From: Trametopsis cervina
Taxonomy: Eukaryota > Basidiomycota > Agaricomycetes > Polyporales > Irpicaceae
Assembly: GCA_022385755.1 (NCBI GenBank)
Contig: MU278364.1
Coordinates: forward strand, 1-64,000
Direction of reading: 5' to 3'
Length of the DNA stretch: 64,000 nt
The position numbers were made by a program, and so were the translations under genes. Positions within the stretch are counted from its first letter, which is position 1; each line of letters opens with the position of its first letter. Below, piece by piece: positions 14,699 to 52,798 of this stretch. The notes under the pieces were generated by a model. It searched no databases and was not told the DNA's origin. It worked only from the letters and a program-made list of their open reading frames with translations.

Positions 14699-14826
14699 GA
14701 CGTAAAAATAGCAATGCACACGCTCATCTGCGAGATGTCGACGATCATATTTGGCCCTATCGATAAGCCTTTGCCTTATCTTCTGGGCGAAAGTACTCAG
14801 CAAGATGCATCAGGTAATGGAGAGAA

Positions 14827-15322
14827 ATGCTGTGGATTAAGCAGCCAAGCCTCGCTTTCCGGGGTACGCTGGCTTGGCCCTGCGGACGTTCCAAGTTTGG
14901 ATGGGTTACAACGTTTGCGACCGGTGCGTTATCTCAAGTTCGGGCGAGATCCGTTCATGAGAGTTTGCTCCGCAGTCGCGCTCAACTCTGCGAAGAAAGA
15001 ACCCGAGTATGTGGGTCGACGGCTTCTCTTAGGGAAGACGGACAACCATAGCAAGCTCGTAGGGCCTGGGAACTGTGGCGTCAACAATACAGTGCTGCGA
15101 CGAGCCGATGGCTGCTCCGCGAGCTTCTGGATCGTACAAATGCCGACATCTTGTTGGAGTTCTGCCGGATGGATATGCAACAATTGGGGTATTCGTTTAT
15201 ACGTCTTCTCAAAAGTACGCCACCATACCATCTTCGTATCCATCTGTCACTCACATGTTGTGACAGCGCACGCAGCGCACCGTACCACGGGTTGGTTGGA
15301 AGCGATTATGCTGCGATTTTAG
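14827..15322 (+). CDS. Candidate orphan gene (132 residues if spliced)
   Basis: A three-exon model (14827-15006, 15052-15214, 15267-15322) has canonical splice ends and keeps frame. The central exon has strong coding character: Trp- and Leu-rich helices ARRAWELWRQQY, SRWLLRELLDRTNADILLEF, and MDMQQLGYSFIRLLK, ending TTGWLEAIMLRF. The same stop codon also closes an unspliced 202-codon ATG frame from 14714, whose composition is less protein-like. Upstream exons could exist, since the first 20 residues look poor. No family recognised. Confidence 0.35.
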
Positions 15323-15583: not shown

Positions 15584-15825
15584 TTAGCACTTGCACTCGC
15601 TGCCGGCGCAGGAGCAGGAGCTGGATGCAAAGTATGGGTAAGCGATGGTCGTCGTCGTCGGTATACCGCTACTCACCCGTTGTTGCAGGTGCTGCAAGAG
15701 GCGTTGGAGCAGCTGCAGCTGGAGCAGGCGTTGTCAACGGGGACGGCGACGTTCTGTGGATGCAATGGCCTTAGGTGAGTATGCGACGTCTGTACAGGGA
15801 TGGAGAAATAACTGACAGCAATCAT
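15584..15825 (-). CDS. Metallothionein 1 (9-Cys, 40 residues)
   Basis: Three exons on the minus strand: 15817-15825 (ATGATTGCT), 15677-15753, 15584-15620. All junctions are canonical (GTCAGT/CAG and GTGAGT/CAG) and in frame. The protein starts MIANVAVPVDNAC; its cysteine pattern is CxxCxC, CxxC, CxC, CxC, nine cysteines in 29 residues, ending SECKC. No aromatic residues or histidines are present. This is a fungal metallothionein: a cytosolic peptide that binds Cu(I), Zn(II) or Cd(II) through cysteine thiolates. Paralogous to the next two genes. A GATAAAAGC element lies 75 nt upstream of the ATG. Metal specificity cannot be read from sequence alone. Confidence 0.85.
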
Positions 15826-17054
15826 GTTGTTGGTAGAGTGGATGGTGGTGAAGATACAAGTAGCTGTTTGCTGCTGATGTTTTTCTACCATCGTGAGGCG
15901 GCTTTTATCTCTTCTGCGTTGTATGCGTGTATTTTGACGGCGCAAATTAAAAAATGCAGCAGACCCTAGCGCATGAACGGCAACGGCTTGTTTGGATCAG
16001 GTTGGCGGTGACTAGGGGGTGGCACATGGGGCCACGCCGCCGTTTGCCGCGCCTCGTTGTGACTCTCCATCTTTGATGATGAGTTCTGCCCCTTACAGCG
16101 ATTCAGACATCATTCACGTCGCAGACGGGAGCATCCCCCAAGCAGCTGCCTGGGTCTTCTGGTGCTGTCAAACAAGCTTTGCATTGCTATCGCACAGCCG
16201 CGGCCTCTTGCCCATTGGACTGAGCACTCCGACTCTGTTCCTCAGATAAGGGAGTCGCTATTCAGAGTATTCCCGAGCTTCGCGGCTTATGAAATTCCGT
16301 TCGCAGCACACTGCATCCTTGACAGTCGTGGTGTTCATGATGGACCCCAGACGACTCGCGTGAGCTGTGGAACGCGGTGTCTCTGCCCTCAAGTGATGGT
16401 CGAATTACCAACCCTTTTGCAAATTCCGTTTCATTTGGAAATACAGTCTCAGGACGTCGTTCGTCGGCCGTTCCTCTCGCAACCCATCGCACGAGGTCTG
16501 GGCGCACTTATGCACAGCTTACGATTTTTTCTTGTACTACGGCCATAAGACGATCTGCGTCGATTGATCAGCAGCGCTCGCCCTCAACGCACTACTGGAC
16601 TTTTCTGCAGGCAACGGTGGGAGCTTGGCCCTCAGTCGTACCGTCTGACTGGAAGCTAGACGGAACAAGCTGCCCAGATGCAAACCCGAACTTCTCCGCA
16701 GAAGAGAGGGATTCTCTCGGGAGGAGTGACCATGCCGTTATGGTCGAAGCCTACCAGCCTGTGGGACCCGGAGACTAGAGAGCCGTTTATAGTCTCTTAT
16801 CATTTGTCCTGATCTGTGTCACACTGCTCCCGTTGACGACGAAACGCCGATGGACGATGCTCTCCGCTTTTAGACTGCCAGGTAAGACAAGCGACACATC
16901 CTGAGATGGCGGGGCATTTAATTTTCTGACTATTTCTACTAAGAAGCATACATTCGAACTACAACAGCAAAGCGGACAACGCGAATGTGACGGGCCCTTT
17001 CGTATACGGGGCGTGCTCAGTCAGAGGTGCGCGGTTCCGAGCCAGCGCCCTAGC
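15826..17054. other. Spacer between metallothionein genes 1 and 2
   Basis: About 1.2 kb holding the promoter of metallothionein 1 (element GATAAAAGC at 15901-15909, minus strand). Two overlapping plus-strand open frames run through 16162-16778, but the one ending at 16778 lacks an in-frame ATG and neither resembles a family. No repeat recognised. Confidence 0.4.
15901..15909 (-). promoter_or_regulatory. Putative TATA box of metallothionein 1
   Basis: The nonamer GATAAAAGC on the minus strand lies 75 nt upstream of the start codon and is identical to one 81 nt upstream of metallothionein 3. Its position fits a fungal core promoter element. Confidence 0.5.
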
Positions 17055-17309
17055 TTAACACTTGCACTCATTGGTGCTGCAGGCGCACTGGCTGTAATCA
17101 CCGCAAACAGGGAGATGTTAGCGGATACCACTGTGCCGAGGTCAGTCGACTCACCCGTTGGTGCAGGTGTTGCAGCTCGCGTTGCTGCAGGAGCATTGGC
17201 CGCAGGCGGCATCGACGGGGACGGTGGTGTTCTATGGCAGTAAGCGCCAGAGGTGAGCACAATATTATAATATCAGTGAACGTATAGGGTCGTTACTCAC
17301 AGCGAACAT
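17055..17309 (-). CDS. Metallothionein 2 (9-Cys, 40 residues)
   Basis: Three exons on the minus strand: 17301-17309 (ATGTTCGCT), 17155-17231, 17055-17091. Exon lengths (9, 77, 37 nt) and intron phases are the same as in metallothionein 1. The protein starts MFANTTVPVDAAC and has CxxCxC, CxxC, CxC, CxC, ending NECKC; nine cysteines at the same positions as in paralogue 1. The 40-residue alignment with paralogue 1 is gap-free, which shows a tandem duplication. Expected to chelate soft metals in the cytosol. Upstream, GAATAAAAC lies 65 nt from the ATG. Confidence 0.85.
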
Positions 17310-18753
17310 GATGATACAGGTTTCGATGAGAGATATTTCTCGACGATGGGGGTTCAGAGCGAGTTGTGGGTTGTGTTTTATTCATAGTTCGTGTGTACCG
17401 TTGTTTACGCTGTCTCCCACTCGGCGGCAGTTCGTATTTCAAACAGGGCAGCTTGTAGGCTATCTGGCACCGGTGGGTCATAGGACTGTATGGTGACTCG
17501 TGTACTCGTCTCATGGTTCGACGTTTGAACGGCATAGGCAGTGAGAATCCCTGCACCTCCTCTGCGGCCGCAACCTTACGCGTTGAAACAGCTCGCCCGG
17601 ACCAGAGGAAAGGATCAACCCTCCTTATATGACCTGCACGCTTAAACAACAGGCTCTTTCGGGTGGATCTTTTACCTGTGGTCTCTTCCGAAGTCAGTAA
17701 GCTGCTGAATTCTGTACCCTGCTAAATAACGTTGTCTCTTGCGAATATTATAGTCCCATATTTCCTACAGACCCAAAGCATCCGTGATTGTATCACGGCG
17801 TACGCCGCCGGGACCCTCCACCTTACGAACTAAGTACTGAATCCAGAGTATGATCCGACCTGCAACTGACGTTCGTCCTCAGGTCGGGCAAACCGTGCCA
17901 TCGCTGTCGCGCTACGCCACTAGATTTGATCAGGATTTGCATTCGGATTTGAGGTTAGCGTACGTATACGCCGCACGTGTGCTCTCTTGCATTATCGCTC
18001 TGACATCTCGTTTCTAGATAGAAGGATCGATTACCTGTGTCGAATGAGGCAAGGGAGTACCTTCAGGCACCTTCCAAGCTCACGAGTTGCGCCTCGCTAG
18101 GGTAGCGTACGCGTACACCAATATTCTCATGGTACGGCTCGTCGGCCGAACTGTGCGCGACAAAATCTGTGATGATGGATGGTTGTGGGGTGGCTGACTG
18201 TTTGGTTGTTCTAGGATTCCTAGGAAACCAGCTGCAATCACGAGTAGCTGATTACGGTCTATTTGGAGATGCCAGTAAAACAGGTAACAAGCAGCTTCCC
18301 GCGAGTACACTCGTATTTGGCTGCAAACCTATTCAGCTTCCGTGCCGCCGGACACAAGTTTAAGTCACACGTTGGAAGCACAGGTAGGCGAATTTCATCT
18401 CTTGAGCGCATGTGTCAATGCCGCTGACTTACCATTATGTTCCCGCAGCGGCGCAAGCATTCACGGGCGGTGTATCAACGTAAACCGACTCTCCCAGTTA
18501 CGCCCCTGAGTCATAATCCAGTGTTTCAAATGACCTTCTACCGGCGTTATCAGGACACAGGGTGGTAGGCAGGCGAAGCAGGACAGGTCTTCAAAACAGA
18601 GGTGTGAGAAGCAGCAATTTATAGCATTTGATGATCATGATACAGATAATACAGGGTTTAGTAGCGCTGTGGCGAGAGTTCGTTCCGCGGGGCGGTCAGG
18701 ACAGGCTCAACATAGCAAAACGCTATCGTTGACAGTCGCCAGCAAGGGTACAC
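17310..18753. other. Spacer between metallothionein genes 2 and 3
   Basis: About 1.4 kb with no supported coding sequence. It includes the upstream region of metallothionein 2 with GAATAAAAC at 17375-17383 (minus strand). Short frames on both strands show no family resemblance. Confidence 0.4.
17375..17383 (-). promoter_or_regulatory. Putative TATA-like box of metallothionein 2
   Basis: GAATAAAAC on the minus strand, 65 nt upstream of the start codon, is at nearly the same place as the GATAAAAGC elements of the two paralogues. Confidence 0.35.
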
Positions 18754-18976
18754 TTAGCACTTGCACTCGCCGGGCTTGCACTGGCAGCTATACGAGATGT
18801 CAGAGAATGTCAGATACTGTATGAACAGAATGGTACGCACCTTGCGCCGCAGTTGCAAGAGTTCGAGCCGCAGCCCTGGGCGTTGGTAGGGACTTCAGAG
18901 GTCTACGACGATCCAAGAAGCGATGAGTATGCGTTTCATATCATGCAAGGGACTAGCGTATACTCACAGCGTACAT
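18754..18976 (-). CDS. Metallothionein 3 (7-Cys, Neurospora-like, 34 residues)
   Basis: Three exons on the minus strand: 18968-18976 (ATGTACGCT), 18841-18902, 18754-18787; 34 residues. The protein starts MYATSEVPTNAQ, then has CGSNSCNCGASCQC and ends GECKC: seven cysteines. The spacing C-x4-C-x-C-x3-C-x-C with Gly, Ser and Asn between is close to the classic seven-cysteine copper metallothionein of Neurospora. Intron 1 again follows codon 3 and the last intron keeps the same phase as in paralogues 1 and 2, so all three descend from one gene, but the middle exon is 15 nt shorter. GATAAAAGC lies 81 nt upstream. Confidence 0.85.
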
Positions 18977-20900
18977 GGCTATGGAGGATATTCTGGATAG
19001 ATAAGTGGGTGGTTGTAACAAGAGTCGCTTGATCTCAGGGCTATCGCGAAGCGGATTGCTTTTATCTATCATCTGTGTATACTTGTTTGCATCAGCGCCA
19101 GGCGGGACACTGCCGGATTAGGTAAGGAGCGTGAATTGTGCGCCCAGCCACTCCAAAAAATCGCTCATCCAGAAACTCCCGCCTATTCACATGCTGGCTC
19201 CAGTAGTAGGCGCCATTAGAACATGTGGTGACGGTGGCATTGTCAACAGTGAGACTAGCCGTCTACGATGTAGGTTTGAGTTGAACCTGTTCAATAGTGA
19301 CGGAAAGCCGCTTCTCGGACACAACTGCAAAGTTGACACAGAGCCGCGGTCCGCTGACCACGTGTGCTAACTACGCACTTGAGGAGAACTTGCCATAAGG
19401 GTATCGCAGCGCATTACTGAGGCTGACTCCGGGTTACGGACCCAGTTCATTATCGTGCATAACTACGAGACAATGCGTACTACGCGTACAAAAGATGACG
19501 CGCCAACATGCCTTCAGGTGTCTCCTTTGAGGGACCACAGGAGATGTAAGGCGGTATCGGAATGACATTATAGCCACGTCTCTTTGAGATGTCTCATGAT
19601 TCCAGACACAGGAACGCACCTAATTTTGACCCGATCCACCGGTGGAGATATGTCTTCTACGCCACAGTTACGTGAGGACTGAACAATGGGAGTACACACA
19701 CTCATATCTACTTGTTTCGATGTTTGCAACTACGCCTTTGATGTGCACAAGATGTCAATGTGCTATGTGGCACTAGGTTACGTCTAGCGGCACAGAAAAC
19801 CGCGCCGCATGTCCCGTTCAAACGAGTGTGGTCAGCAGGACGGAAGCCACTGTTTATATATATCGCTGTTCGAGACCGAAGCGATGGACTTACCACCCCT
19901 CTCGGCTCTGTGAAACGCGTAGAGCGTACAGCTTACAGACATGATCTATCAAGAATGCAGGTAAGATCACGGTACTGGCTCATGGTATTAGGATTATGTC
20001 ATACCTATGCCTGTGAACCCACCCCTCAGACGCTTTTATAAACCATATCCAGCGCCAAGATTGTAGACATGGTCTGCTATACGTAAAGTCTTCCGCATTT
20101 TCTATACTTACGCAGAACACGCCGTCCCACGCAGATAAGGTCTGTTTACGCAGCAGCGTCATTGCCTTCGCACGGTAGCATCTGCCGCGTGCGTATAGCT
20201 CACGTGAAGCACATATGTTATTCGATGCATAGTGAGCCTGCGAAATGCTGTTCGTGCGAGGCAAGCTCTGGATATGCGGATCAGTCACCACCAATCATGC
20301 TAAGAGTCGTTTTAGGCCAGCTACAGGCGCACCTCCAGACATGCGACCGACTTGAGCGGCCTCGCGGCACCAACGAGTTGTGCCCCGAGTCAACCTCGCA
20401 AAGAGGGATCAAGTGGGCCCACTCATCTGACGCAGGAAACAAAAATCATTTGTGTCTGGTAGAGGCAGCTCAAAAGCCTGCAGTACCGTATCTCGACATA
20501 CCCTCGCACACAAACAATCATTTGTTCGCGAAGATACGTCTTGGTACGAACATGTAGGAAGGCCACGTCGGATGATTATCGTAGGTACGCTCCTCCCGCG
20601 CTGCAACATGGGGGCTGGCATAAACGTGTGGACCTGGGTGGTGGTGTTATCTGAATGCACTATTAACGTGGCTTCGTGCAGGCAAGGAACAAATATGCCC
20701 ATCATATCTCCGACTGTCACAAAGGCACAGCCAATATTATGATTGGGCTCATCAACATGCGACGTCACCGTGGCCGTTTGCCCTGTCTCTTGAGCCAGAT
20801 TTCGACAATTGTATTTCTGCAATGTGTGAATGGGAGGCTGGCCAGACTCTTGTGGACCTCGGCTGGGGAAGCTAACACGGGCTGATCGCCACTGTCGACT
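18977..20900. other. Gene-free stretch upstream of metallothionein 3
   Basis: About 1.9 kb. It contains the metallothionein 3 promoter (GATAAAAGC, 19058-19066, minus). Around 19201-19270 the minus strand reads an acceptor-like TCGTAG and then TASLTVDNATVTTCSNGA, faintly like the middle exon of metallothionein 1 or 2 but lacking its cysteines. Otherwise nothing recognised. Confidence 0.35.
19058..19066 (-). promoter_or_regulatory. Putative TATA box of metallothionein 3
   Basis: GATAAAAGC on the minus strand, 81 nt upstream of the start codon, identical in sequence and close in position to the element of metallothionein 1. Confidence 0.5.
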
Positions 20901-20920: not shown

Positions 20921-20965
20921 TTGCACTTGTTTGTGCAGGTGTTACAGCACACTTACAGCGAACAA
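20921..20965 (-). pseudogene. Decayed metallothionein copy
   Basis: Minus strand 20957-20965 reads TTGTTCGCT followed by GTAAGT, matching ATGTTCGCT|GTGAGT of metallothionein 2 but with the start ATG changed to TTG. Directly beyond, 20948-20929 reads GCTGTAACACCTGCACAAAC, which matches 18 of 20 bases of the metallothionein 2 middle exon (GCTGCAACACCTGCACCAAC). The body of intron 1 and the front of exon 2 are missing. This is an internally deleted relic of a fourth gene copy. Confidence 0.6.
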
Positions 20966-21293: not shown

Positions 21294-24200
21294 ATGGACC
21301 CAATCACCAGCAGAGACAACCTCTTTTCTCGTGGGCCATCTCCACCTCCTTCAGGACACCAGCCTTTCCAGGTGAACGCTCCGACTCAGCAGCCCGAGCA
21401 ACAGCCCGCTGCCTCACCATCTCAGCGCGAAACAAACACGACGGCTAACAATGCCCTCGAATCGCTTTTCCACAATCTCACCGCGCCGGCGCCCTCTGAA
21501 GTGAGCCCTCAGCTTCCCGCTGCAGTGCCCAATGCTTTCCAGGCTCCCGCGGATGTGCCTCAATCTGGCCCTGCCACTCCAGCTTCCGTGAACGCTGGAT
21601 CTGTTTCTTCATCTCATTCCGCCCCAATCCACGCGACTGCAGATAGGCAGAATGCGTTATTATCTTTATTAGGTGCTGTGTCATCTCCAACAATTTCCAC
21701 CACCGCAAACACTCAGCCTCTGGGTGGTGCTATCACCCCACAACAAGTCCCGACCCCTCCGGGTTCGGCACCAAGAGTTCCAGTCATGAACAGCGAGTCG
21801 CAGGGGAAGTTTTTGCTCGAGCAGTTGATGTCAGGGTGAGTGTTCGACAATAGTACGATTGGCGCGAGTGGATCATTCTGCAACCCACAAATCCCACATT
21901 ACAACTTTACTGACCATTACGCTCCCATCTACAGTGCCAAGTTCAGCAACGAGGCACAGCCGCCACCTTATTCCGTTGGTTCAGTAGCCTCGGGAGGCTC
22001 TCCGAACTATTTGCCCTCTCACCTGGAGCCTCAAGCGCAGGCTTCTGCAGAATTCTATGGAGACAACAACTCCTTCAGTTCTCTCGACCCGACACCTTCC
22101 AACGAGACCGCTCCAACACAACAGTCTCAACAGCGCCCACCTTCGCCAGGACGAAGGTCGATGTTTGATTTCGTTTCTCCTTTCGACGCCCTCTCGACTC
22201 CTCCTACCTCTCAACAACCGAAGAGGAAGCCTGTACCACCTCAGTCTTCGAACGCACCTAGTACTCCTGACGAGTCGTCTTCTTGGGCCGCTATTTCGAT
22301 GGATCCCAAGCGCAAGTCCGTCGAAAACCTGATGGACCAGCTGACGAGAGGACAAGGGCCTCTGGCTCCCCCCGCTCAGTCTATCACTGCCCAGTTCGAC
22401 CCCTACGGACCACTGGAGGATCTTACTCCTCAAGTAGAGCCAGCCAGGTCGCGTCCTCTGCCGCCACAGCCCATTCAGCAGGGTTCATCTTCGCCGCGCG
22501 CGTCGCCCCCCAAACCGGTTGTGCAAGCTCGTCAGCAGCGACGATCTGCGGACTCTCCTGTTGGGCCTCCGAGTGTGAACAGTTATCAAAGCGCTCCAAA
22601 GGACAATAACCAGCTCGCCCCTGGACCTTTCCGCCAGGAAGTTCGTGGCAAGGGTCAAGGACAGAAGGGTAAAACTAGCCCGAGGTATGTGGTTGATTCC
22701 GTCAACACTTGGGTAGTTTACTCACGATAATGTTTTAGCGTGACACAGCAGACGATCGTCTTTGATGTCTCTCAGCCTCTTGATGAGGTTCAGGCACCGC
22801 ACGACGCTGTGAAGTCGACCGCAATTGCGTTGGTCAAGGTAGATTCCACCTTCTTACCCGGAAGCACCATTGGAGCAACTCATTGGGTTGCCTACGCCAT
22901 GACGAAAGGTGAGCTCGTCTCTACCTCCCGTTATCACAGTACTAAAATACGCGTTATAGGGCGTGTTAGGGTTATCTCCCGATCTAGTGGAGATCGTACT
23001 TTGCTTCAGCTCCCTCCTGTGTTCGCGCCTTCTGTCGCCGTCAGTGATATGTCTGTTCATGGCAACAGACTGGCGGGTGTGACCTCCGACGGAGGACTGG
23101 TCGTCTGGGAACTTCCAGAGGTCATCAGAGACGATGTGGCGTGAGTACGCCGCGCTCATTTTATTGGACGGTATCCTGATCATATTCTTACAGAGGCAAA
23201 TTGGTGCTCTGCGTCCTTCCTGCTACCGATTTCGACCCTCTTCATGCGGTAAAATGGCATCCAAGAGAGCCAGATCTGATCGCTGTTGCATCCGAGACAA
23301 ACGTATTCCTCATCAACATTGCTGACGCCTTCCATGCGTTCGGAGGCGAGGCTGTCTCTCAGTCTGAACTCCAGCGAGTCGGACAGCTCTTCGCGGCGTC
23401 ATCTGTAAGCAACCATTATTATGTATGCCTGTAATGCTCTTTAACGCGCCCTGACAGCCTATCATCGCCTTCGACTTCGACGTGCCTCGCTCTGCGCTGG
23501 CCACCATCTCTGAGGACTCCACGCTGACGATGTGGAACATACGCGACAAGCTTCCCTTCTGGTCGCATCGGATCCGCGGCGATGATATGCCGTCGTCGCT
23601 GACCTTCGTTGATGGCGGCGTTGTCATCGGTCGCAGAAACGGAACTGTGTTCCAGCTTCTGACAGTTATGGGCAGGAACGTGCTATCCACGATTCATTTC
23701 GTGAACGGCTCGGGCGATGACCCGGACATGTTCGGGCATGTCAACTACGATGCCAGGATTCAGACCCTTTGGATTGCCAACAACCGCCGAGAGAGTATGA
23801 TCGCTTTCCGCCTGAACTTCGACGTCTCGACGCCGTCTCCCGGAGGTGAAGAGGTTCGCGGACCGTTCTTCGATCAAGTCGTCGAGTTCGCGGGACCTAA
23901 GCCTACGATTCACTTCGTCATCCTCACTGCCCACGCAGACCCACACGGCACCGAGGCTCAGGCCGCCTGCGTTGCAGCCAAAGTTCCTCCCGGCGACTTG
24001 GCTCTGGTTGCATTCGCCGTTCATTCTAGCGGAGTCGACCAGATCCTCATCCGCAAGGAGTGGTTTACCTCTGCTCTAGCCAGTACACCTGAGAAGTTCC
24101 CGACATATGCTGCCCCGGCTCCTCAAGCTGAGCAGAGAGGTGCACGTCAGCAGCAGTTCTTCGTTCCCCCAGCGCCGCAGGCTGTCCCACATCCTGCCCC

Positions 24201-26071
24201 AGTACAGTCCGCACCAGTCAGGCCAAAGACTCCTCCTGAGGAGGACCTCGAGGGCATCGATTCTCGCGAAGATGGACGTGTGCAGGAGTTCAAAGGCAGA
24301 GGCCAAAAGGGCAAGAACGCAGGATGGAAGAACAACAACAACAACAATGAGGAGGGTAACAGCAAGGAGAGAGACGTCAAGGGCAAGGCGGTAGACACTA
24401 GCGCCGCTGATTCGCCACTTGCAGTCGTCTTAACGAAGGAGATCAAGAAGGTCGAGGAGAGTCTCCATAACCGCATCGGTAGGATGCTCGGTAAGGAGCT
24501 CGACAGGCAACGTGAGTTCTTCATTCATTGCATCTGCTATCATTGTTTGCTAACCTCGTATTAGAACAACGTCTCGAGGATGCTCGCGTCAACGAACAAG
24601 CTGCTGATCTCACCCGGCAGGAGAAGATCCTCAAGCTCATCTCAACTGAGTTGACGAGGAACACGACCCGTGTGGTTGAGATGGCTGTCAAGTCGGAAGT
24701 GCAGAACTCTGTACTCCCCGCGCTCGAGAACATTACGAAGGCAGAGGTCAAGTCTGCGCTGAACAACCAGATTGCCAAGGGACTTGCAGACTCGATGAAG
24801 CAGGTACGTCTTTCCAGTTCATCGTCATCTTCCCCATCTCATACTTTCGTCAGAATCTTCCCAATGAGATCGAACGTCTTCTCCTGCGCCCTGATGTCTC
24901 GAACCACATCGCGCGTACGTTCTCGTCAGCAGTGACACCACTCGTTGAGAAGCAGGTCAAGGAAACCATCACGAAGAGTCTCATCCCTGCGTATACTCAG
25001 CAGTCATCGACCATGCATCAGGAGCTGTCGAGAGAGATTCATTCTGAGATCCTGAACCTGAAGAAGGAGGTTATAACCTGGCAGAGTGAAGCTCTTCGCG
25101 GCCAAGAGGTACGTGACTTGTGCGGTAAGAAGCACTCAAAGCTGATATAGTTTTTGTCTCAGACTCTCATTCGTGAACTCGAGCAATCTGTCCGCCTGCT
25201 ATCGGACCAGATCAAGTACATGTCGATGAACATGAACCAACAACAGCAAAATCATCCAGCGTCTCGTGGTTCCCCTGTCGCGTCAGGTAGCGGGCAGCAT
25301 CAGCAAAGCAATCTCAGCCAACTGCTCCGTCAGCCTCATATGGCTCCTGTTTCTCAGCAATCTTCGAATTATGGCCCAAGTCACGGACCCTATCCTCTCC
25401 AATCTCAGCAGGCAACCGCTCCTCCCTCTTGGTTTACGTCGAATATTGCCGCTCCTCAAGCGTCTCATCCCGCTGCACCTCCTCCCGTTCCCGCTCAATC
25501 TCAAAACATGAATAATTTGAACCGCACACCACCGCTCCTCCCACAGCAGTCAGAAGAGTGGGATGACACCTATCTTGCTGTGCTCGGCTCCCAGGACACT
25601 CGTCAGCTGCGTGAGTTACTCGCAAGGTCAAATCCGGATAGCATCATGCCTTTGGGAGGAGGTGGACCTCTCTCTCAAGCCGTCGTTCTCACCCTCGTAC
25701 ACCGAGTAAGTTGTCCAGCCAAGTGCTAAAACGTATGATGGTCTAACACATGTACTTCTAGCTCGCCGCTATGATTGGTGAGATACCTCCTTCTGATGAA
25801 TCGTTCAAGTCGTCCTTGTGGTGGCTGCAACGCGCGTCTGCGACTCTCAACACTAGTGTAAGTGACCAAGTTGCGAAATCGTTTCCTATTACTCACTCGG
25901 AGCTTCTAGGATCCTCTCATCTCGCCATACGTCTCGCGTGTCATGCCCAGTGTTCAGCAGATGCTGAACACCACGAAGCAACGTCTTGCCATTCTCCCTA
26001 CCAGCCCTCTCATCGACACCGCTCGCACCATCTCCGATGTCCAGGACATGCTCTCGAGGAAACCTCTCTAA
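21294..26071 (+). CDS. EDC4: EDC4/Ge-1-like mRNA decapping scaffold
   Basis: Eleven exons keep frame (21294-21835, 21935-22684, 22739-22908, 22960-23140, 23194-23404, 23458-24511, 24565-24803, 24854-25108, 25163-25705, 25762-25857, 25910-26071), 1400 residues. Order: a Pro/Ser/Gln-rich disordered N-terminus of about 430 residues; a WD40-like beta-propeller (KSTAIALVKVDS, GGLVVWELPEV, HAVKWHPREPDLIAVASETN, STLTMWNIRDKLPFW); a low-complexity acidic/Asn linker; a long helical coiled-coil region (KVEESLHNRIGRMLGKELD, SRQEKIL-like); and a C-terminal helical domain ending QDMLSRKPL. This is the layout of animal EDC4 and fission yeast Pdc1, P-body scaffolds that bring Dcp2 and Edc3 together. The ATG at 21294 has a good context (ATCACCATGG). 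Confidence 0.85.
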
Positions 26072-51585: not shown

Positions 51586-52798
51586 TCACAGACGTTCAGA
51601 TTGACCTGGTTGCCCCTTCCTTGTTTCGTTGTCTGCGGCAGCCCGCAGATACTTGTACACAGACGAGAAGTCCTTATTCGCGAGCTCGGGCGCCGTCGCA
51701 ATAGCCTCCGCGTATATCTTCTCCGCCGCCTCACCCATTGGGAGCGGACAACCCACAAGGTCGCCGATTTCCGTCGCTAGGCCCATGTCCTGTCAAAAAT
51801 TTCATGATTTTTGCCCTAGAATGCAGAAATCCGTGAGACTTGCTTACCTTCAGCATCAGACTCGTCGCAAACCCAGGCTCAAAATCTCTCGCAGAAGCCG
51901 GCTCCTTGTCAGGCAAGGCTCCGGCCGCTGGGTTGTTCACCGAGCTGGCCCAGCACGCCCCCGTCGAGTTGTTGATTACATCGGCCAGCACAGCAGGTTC
52001 CAGCCCCAGTTTCTGACCAAGGAGCATCGCCTCGGCAACGACGATTTGTTGTACCCCAAGTATCATGTTGTTACAAATCTTCGCTGTGAGGCCCGCCCCA
52101 CTTGGACCGCAGTACATTATTCGTTTCCCCATGCGCGTGAGGATGGGCGAGGCCCGTTCGAATGCTTCGTCTGTACCACCCACAAGGAAGCTCAGTGTGC
52201 CGGCTTTGGCACCTACGACCCCGCCGCTGACGGGGGCGTCCACCATTGTAGCCCCAGTTTTGTGAACTTCGGCCGCCACATTCCGTGCGACTTCCACGTC
52301 TAAAGTGGTAGAGTCGATGCAGAACGTTGAGGCTGTTTCATTGGGCGCAAGCGCACGCAGTGCCGGGATGATGCCTCCGTCTTCGGTGGCATACACTGTC
52401 TGCACATGTGGAGATGAGGGAAGCATAGTCACTACGGTCTGAGAGGCAGCGACTGCACTGTAAAATGGTCATCTTGGCTGTAACATACGCTATATACATG
52501 TCACTCACTCTGCAGGTGAAGCCACCATCTCAATTCTCGCACCAGGGAAATGGTGGTGGAAGTTCTTTATGAATGCTATCGAGTTTTCTTCTCGTACATC
52601 GCATACTACAAAGCGTGCATTCCCTGCTGTCTCAACCAGTGTTCGCGAGAAGAGGTTGTAAGCCATCTCGTAGCCCATTCTCCCAAGGCCGATGAACGCC
52701 GTCGTGCGTGACCTCGAACTAGATGCACCCTGTGTCGAATATGTCCGTGCGAGGTTAGTTAGCATACGTGTGCTCGTCCGCATCATGGTTGATTGCAT
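51586..52798 (-). CDS. HIBADH: 3-Hydroxyisobutyrate dehydrogenase, mitochondrial
   Basis: Minus-strand gene with a few exons; start at 52798. The first 30 residues (MQSTMMRTSTRMLTNLARTY) are Ser/Thr/Arg-rich, mitochondrial presequence-like. NAD-binding motif FIGLGRMGYEMAYNL follows, then VVTMLPSSPHVQTVY, substrate motif VDAPVSGGVVGAKAGTLSF, catalytic lysine in GAGLTAKICNNMILG, and NNSTGACWASSVNNP. Later exon reads ATEIGDLVGCPLPMGEAAEK; the end is KGQPGQSERL. It oxidises 3-hydroxyisobutyrate to methylmalonate semialdehyde in valine breakdown. The ATG at 52798 was chosen over upstream non-ATG openings. Confidence 0.93.

Follow-up and report, generated by a model that had tools for sequence, protein, structure and literature searches.

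Three putative metallothionein (MT) genes, MT1 to MT3, lie in tandem on the minus strand near the start of a contig of the fungus Trametopsis cervina. The window we analysed is the first 64,000 nucleotides of that contig (C17:1-64000), in a genome of 29.4 Mb and 59 contigs. MT1 occupies 15584..15825 (exons 15825-15817, 15753-15677 and 15620-15584) and predicts MIANVAVPVDNACSSCSCSNASCSTCNNGSCSCAGSECKC, a product of 40 residues with nine cysteines. MT2 occupies 17055..17309 (exons 17309-17301, 17231-17155 and 17091-17055) and predicts MFANTTVPVDAACGQCSCSNASCNTCTNGQCACSTNECKC, likewise 40 residues with nine cysteines. MT3, at 18754..18976 (exons 18976-18968, 18902-18841 and 18787-18754), predicts the 34-residue MYATSEVPTNAQGCGSNSCNCGASCQCKPGECKC, whose seven cysteines are of the heptaCys type. 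The original prediction had placed three minus-strand, three-exon genes at 15584-18976, with products of 40, 40 and 34 residues carrying 9, 9 and 7 cysteines. Reading the minus strand and splicing in silico reproduced those genes to the base and gave the same translations, with no internal stop in any set of joined exons.

The three genes follow a common intron plan. Intron 1 falls after codon 3 and intron 2 falls in phase 2 in all three, as had been predicted. The wider claim of identical architecture holds for intron number, the codon-3 position and phase, but not for exon length: exon 2 measures 77, 77 and 62 nt and exon 3 measures 37, 37 and 34 nt in MT1, MT2 and MT3. Exons span 9 to 77 nt, the first being 9 nt. 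All six predicted introns run GT...AG and are 53-69 nt long (65 and 53 nt in MT3), with donors GTGAGT in four cases, GTCAGT in one and GTGCGT in one. Each intron also carries a CTNAY branch-like site 8-45 nt from its 3' end, an outcome equalled by 8 of 2000 shuffles. Codon usage is strongly skewed, with TGC supplying 24 of 25 cysteine codons and G+C at third codon positions (GC3) at 0.82-0.90.

This architecture is rare enough to set aside chance. In noncoding DNA, cysteine codons might by accident lie where GT...AG sites allow them to be joined; exons of 9-77 nt are each weak evidence alone, and the changes between MT1 and MT2 show no third-position excess. We scanned both strands of the 64 kb for an ATG plus 6 nt, a donor, an intron of 45-90 nt, a middle exon, a second intron and a terminal exon of the form C-x-C-(3 to 5 x)-C-x-C-stop, requiring at least seven cysteines in total. 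Only MT1, MT2 and MT3 matched, and 200 dinucleotide shuffles produced no match at all. The scan was modelled on the three genes themselves, so it gauges rarity rather than discovery. With a looser terminal exon, a threshold of at least six cysteines returned the same three genes, at least five added one unrelated site, and at least seven found nothing in 34,902 bases from elsewhere in the genome, the four loci that overlap the cluster being left out. The identical phases of the three copies and the presence of a branch-like site in all six introns also speak against chance, and a relative in Irpex lacteus (E 5e-12, described below) does so strongly. Chance assembly is thus exceedingly improbable, and on sequence evidence MT1 to MT3 are confirmed as real genes.

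The products have the composition of metallothioneins. In the broad sense, a metallothionein is a small protein with about 20% cysteine, arranged in CxC and CxxC, and few or no aromatic residues. Cysteine makes up 9/40, 9/40 and 7/34 of the three peptides, and the longest hydrophobic run in each is residues 1-3. Aromatic residues had been described as absent; this is true of MT1, but MT2 carries Phe2 and MT3 carries Tyr2.

Beyond cysteine counting, the three peptides fall into two layouts that the original prediction left unseparated. MT3 reads C-x4-C-x-C-x3-C-x-C-x4-C-x-C, an exact fit to the C-terminal heptaCys motif C-x4-C-x-C-x2,3-C-x-C-x4-C-x-C of Agaricomycete metallothioneins, which come in short (at most 35 residues) and long (at most 59 residues) forms (PMC12508003, in the portion available). 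Its 34 residues, three exons and short predicted introns also agree with the short type, of which Agaricus crocodilinus AcMT2 has three exons and introns of about 50 bp (PMC12508003). By its predicted sequence, MT3 is an ordinary short heptaCys metallothionein, a new member of an already known Agaricomycete family. MT1 and MT2 instead read C-x2-C-x-C-x4-C-x2-C-x4-C-x-C-x4-C-x-C and do not fit the heptaCys motif. All three peptides have in common the final C-x-C-x4-C-x-C, an aligned start M-x-A-...-V-P and the intron plan.

The nine-cysteine layout recurs in a second species. A profile of MT1 and MT2, searched against 5.8 billion proteins, retrieved the unnamed 58-residue Irpex lacteus protein BC629DRAFT_1463815 (P0001) at E 5.2e-12. 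Three profile searches, from alignments of 2, 3 and 4 sequences, returned this same single protein. Its sequence starts with MFANTSVPVDAACSSCSCSSASCNTCTNG and ends with QCTCKPSECKC; the 18 residues between them are an insert, located where MT1 and MT2 have intron 2. The insert starts Y-V after G, which fits G|TAY GTN with a GTAYGT donor, and ends I-S before Q, which fits ...AG|C CAR. From these ends and a length of 54 nt, within the local intron range, we infer that intron 2 was left, in frame, in the deposited model, a reading made from the protein sequence alone. Minus the insert, the Irpex protein has 40 residues and nine cysteines, matches MT2 at 32 and MT1 at 29 of 40 positions, and, like MT1 and MT2, does not fit the heptaCys motif. 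All nine cysteines are invariant across the three sequences, compared with 17 of the 31 remaining positions (Fisher p 0.016). So read, the Irpex protein is cross-species evidence for the nine-cysteine form and for the intron-2 site, and MT1 and MT2 are a predicted nine-cysteine variant common to Irpex lacteus, with two extra leading cysteines and two one-residue spacer insertions. The Irpex model is also consistent with the original warning that annotation would easily miss such genes; metallothionein genes of this sort are often misannotated on account of their short exons (PMC4755600, in the portion available).

MT1 to MT3 belong to an array that has probably also lost a member. The distance from ATG to ATG is 1484 nt between MT1 and MT2 and 1667 nt between MT2 and MT3. 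MT1 and MT2 are 71% identical in exon 2 and 70% in exon 3, as against 54% in intron 1, 45% in intron 2 and 40% over the 200 nt upstream, the pattern expected if an old duplication was followed by constraint on the exons. Some 2 kb upstream of MT3, beyond the interval of the original prediction, which omitted it, lies a probable decayed fourth copy on the minus strand (20929..20965). Its first piece, TTGTTCGCTGTAAGT (20965-20951), resembles an exon-1 and donor remnant with TTG replacing ATG and two mismatches to the start and donor of MT2. The second, GCTGTAACACCTGCACAAAC (20948-20929), follows two bases later and resembles the end of exon 2, again with two mismatches to MT2. The two pieces were spotted before being tested. 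The 20-nt second piece is the sole match beyond MT2 itself at up to three mismatches, and none of 100 shuffles gave another. The 15-nt first piece is weaker: its pattern has eight matches in the window against 2.3 expected, four of the eight in the array with MT2 counted, and a site outside the array (52077-52091) also has just two mismatches. A local alignment of the relic region was reached by 1 of 100 shuffles and was one of 24 tests, which calls for multiple-test caution. Because that alignment is weak, we base the decayed copy on the second piece together with the order and nearness of the two. The copy would have lost its start codon and most of exon 2.

Two further resemblances were noted in the neighbourhood. 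Positions 20631-20653 on the minus strand show a weak likeness (74% over 23 nt) to the end of intron 1 and start of exon 2 of MT2; this may be chance or a further relic piece, and it was left out of the relic evidence. On the plus strand near 18.0 kb, a stretch of 14 nt matches MT3; none of 100 shuffles equalled it, but with 24 comparisons made we regard it as chance.

The locus is very probably a tandem metallothionein array, with three intact genes and a probable decayed copy, derived by duplication of one three-exon ancestor. Metallothionein identity, as the original prediction had it, is supported by the exact heptaCys motif of MT3 and by the nine-cysteine Irpex relative of MT1 and MT2. 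Several results weigh against this reading. Pfam and NCBIfam profile searches assigned none of the three proteins to a family, NCBIfam being built for bacteria and archaea and profiles serving such short proteins poorly, and no PDB chain matched MT2 or MT3 by sequence. The database searches, which scored only proteins with shared exact words (1, 1 and 2 candidates), found a single relative and none specific to MT3. No 7-mer is common to the three 400-nt upstream regions. Sites resembling the metal response element (MRE), TGCRCNC, number 0, 1 and 1 in the 500 nt upstream of MT1, MT2 and MT3, with about 0.5 expected for each, and GCTG cores number 10, 5 and 6 against 4.4, 4.0 and 3.9 in shuffles, a mild excess mainly at MT1. 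The upstream regions thus lend little sequence support to common metal regulation, and we claim no regulator site. Between MT1 and MT2, differences by codon position are 13, 13 and 9, counts qualified by the constraint that a strong preference for C places on third positions. The NG86 method gives a nonsynonymous rate (dN) of 0.36 and a synonymous rate (dS) of 0.42, a dN/dS of about 0.84. With that ratio and that spread across codon positions, the pair alone does not demonstrate purifying selection.

The same ratio would suit a pseudogene. One or more of MT1 to MT3 might be silent or decaying, like the apparent fourth copy in the same array, and the first donor of MT1, GTCAGT, is the least usual of the set. 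Yet every frame is open, every splice site is GT-AG, and all nine cysteines are retained in both MT1 and MT2, which makes decay unlikely. Intact genes could also encode cysteine-rich peptides with another role, for instance redox scavenging or the supply of copper to cuproenzymes; the authors of PMC12508003 themselves consider that AcMT1 may serve as a chaperone or radical scavenger. We find this improbable. The motif of MT3 is exactly that of peptides shown to protect yeast against Cd and Cu: 17 of 17 heptaCys relatives did so for each metal, with variable results for Zn, in that paper's table, which covers Agaricales and Boletales only (PMC12508003). The composition is rich in CxC, and no other domain appears in Pfam or NCBIfam.

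Each intact gene of the array carries a candidate core promoter element. An ATAAAA element precedes every ATG of MT1 to MT3 at a distance of 72-89 nt. The TATA-like sequences, all on the minus strand and recognised by consensus resemblance only, are GATAAAAG at 15902..15909 (84 nt upstream of the MT1 ATG), ATAAAA at 17376..17381 (72 nt upstream of the MT2 ATG) and GATAAAAG again at 19059..19066 (90 nt upstream of the MT3 ATG).

The genome also contains candidate copper regulators. Two loci, C7:885211-888297 and C11:15246-18341, encode a copper fist, confirmed by Pfam in both, and the nearest PDB sequence is AMT1, a metallothionein activator (E 9e-6). At the C7 locus, an adjoining frame, which matches no Pfam family, carries three cysteine motifs: CHCKDVWSCRC (11 residues, four cysteines), CTCGFDCTCPGC (12 residues, five cysteines) and CGCPGDECSC (10 residues, four cysteines). 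Their sizes equal those of the three cysteine motifs of Cryptococcus Cuf1, the first of which Cuf1 requires to switch on the metallothionein gene CMT1 at high copper (PMC13343922, in the portion available). We take the copper-fist and cysteine-motif frames, by assumption, to be exons of a single gene, and it is a guess that its product controls the MT array.

One flank of the array holds a Syf1 splicing-factor gene, recognised by a PDB match, and an open reading frame (ORF) resembling a prenyltransferase alpha subunit below the Pfam cut-off. The other holds a run of plus-strand ORFs from 21270 onward. Pfam gave no match for two ORFs of that run, at 21840-22727 and 23482-24561, nor for the ORF at 14714-15319 beside the cluster. 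Scans of the window for tRNA genes, Rfam families (at the gathering threshold) and tandem repeats found nothing. Protein queries with MT2, MT3 and the Irpex-derived sequence found no further MT copies in the genome, every match lying at this cluster; the MT2 query misses MT3, so divergent paralogues may exist elsewhere. A search of the genome for the class II peroxidase extension gave 10 matches, nine above cut-off, which points to a wood-rot fungus; taken together with the Irpex relative, this would suggest a polypore close to Irpex. Four are grouped at C6:538443-562835 and two at C10:456320-460406, and a search of the genome for DyP peroxidases gave none. Metal handling bears on wood decay in fungi of this kind.

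We propose that the array buffers metal. Transcripts of MT1 to MT3, if expressed, would be spliced with their 9-nt first exon and yield peptides that would reside in the cytosol. Their cysteines would enclose Cu(I) or Cd(II) in thiolate clusters and buffer excess metal, and copper might induce the array by way of the genome's own Cuf1-type copper-fist factor. Such a mechanism would be of an already known type; a fungal unit of seven cysteines takes up five to six Cu(I) (PMC4755600; PMC13107397, in the portions available).

The array would extend the characterised mushroom metallothionein family to an Irpex-like, peroxidase-bearing genome. Its nine-cysteine form has no name in Pfam or NCBIfam, and the sole deposited relative found is also unnamed and apparently intron-retaining. 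An M3S9 cluster, of which the vertebrate beta domain is an example, takes nine cysteines to hold three divalent ions. One tentative possibility, which we hold with some doubt, is that the nine-cysteine genes form a separate subfamily of Irpex-like wood-rot fungi, derived from heptaCys genes through two insertions in spacers and the addition of C-x2-C-x-, and that the array pairs a copper-type seven-cysteine peptide with a nine-cysteine peptide capable of binding Cd or Zn. Were this so, the array would serve as a natural experiment on the control of metal choice by cysteine spacing. With two layouts and a probable relic on a common exon plan, it offers a direct test of the effect of spacing on Cu versus Cd or Zn. 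Judged by titles and the starts of abstracts among the matches listed, we recognised neither a nine-cysteine metallothionein of this spacing nor Irpex metallothioneins in the open-licence PMC literature.

Comparison with known fungal metallothioneins sets MT3 apart from MT1 and MT2. The original prediction had proposed profiling against fungal metallothionein families; MT3 could be placed by its heptaCys motif, but the Pfam and NCBIfam profiles placed none of the three, nor did the fungi-I (family 8) Cu-thionein pattern X2-CXC-X5-CXC-X3-CXC-X2-C-X3, whose spacing we compared as given in PMC4755600. The family 8 proteins of Neurospora crassa and Agaricus bisporus are short and CxC-rich, with seven cysteines as in MT3. 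Among short heptaCys metallothioneins, AcMT2, PiMT1, AsMT2, LbMT1, PaMT1 and ShMT1/2 have the cysteine spacing of MT3 and have the C-terminal C-x-C-x4-C-x-C in common with MT1 and MT2 (PMC12508003). In MT1 and MT2, C-x2-C and C-x4-C replace the heptaCys C-x-C and C-x2,3-C, and an extra C-x2-C-x- leads. The Irpex protein BC629DRAFT_1463815 has their layout, but with its 18-residue insert and no metallothionein name. The long metallothioneins (AcMT1, HcMT1/2, HmMT1-3 and LbMT2a/b), compared through that paper's text only, resemble MT1 and MT2 in carrying added cysteines before a C-terminal cysteine core, but have 49-59 residues rather than 40 (PMC12508003). In AcMT1, which has four exons, an internal duplication added C-x-C-x2-C-x5 (PMC12508003), whereas MT1 and MT2 have three exons, an added C-x2-C-x- and shifted spacing.

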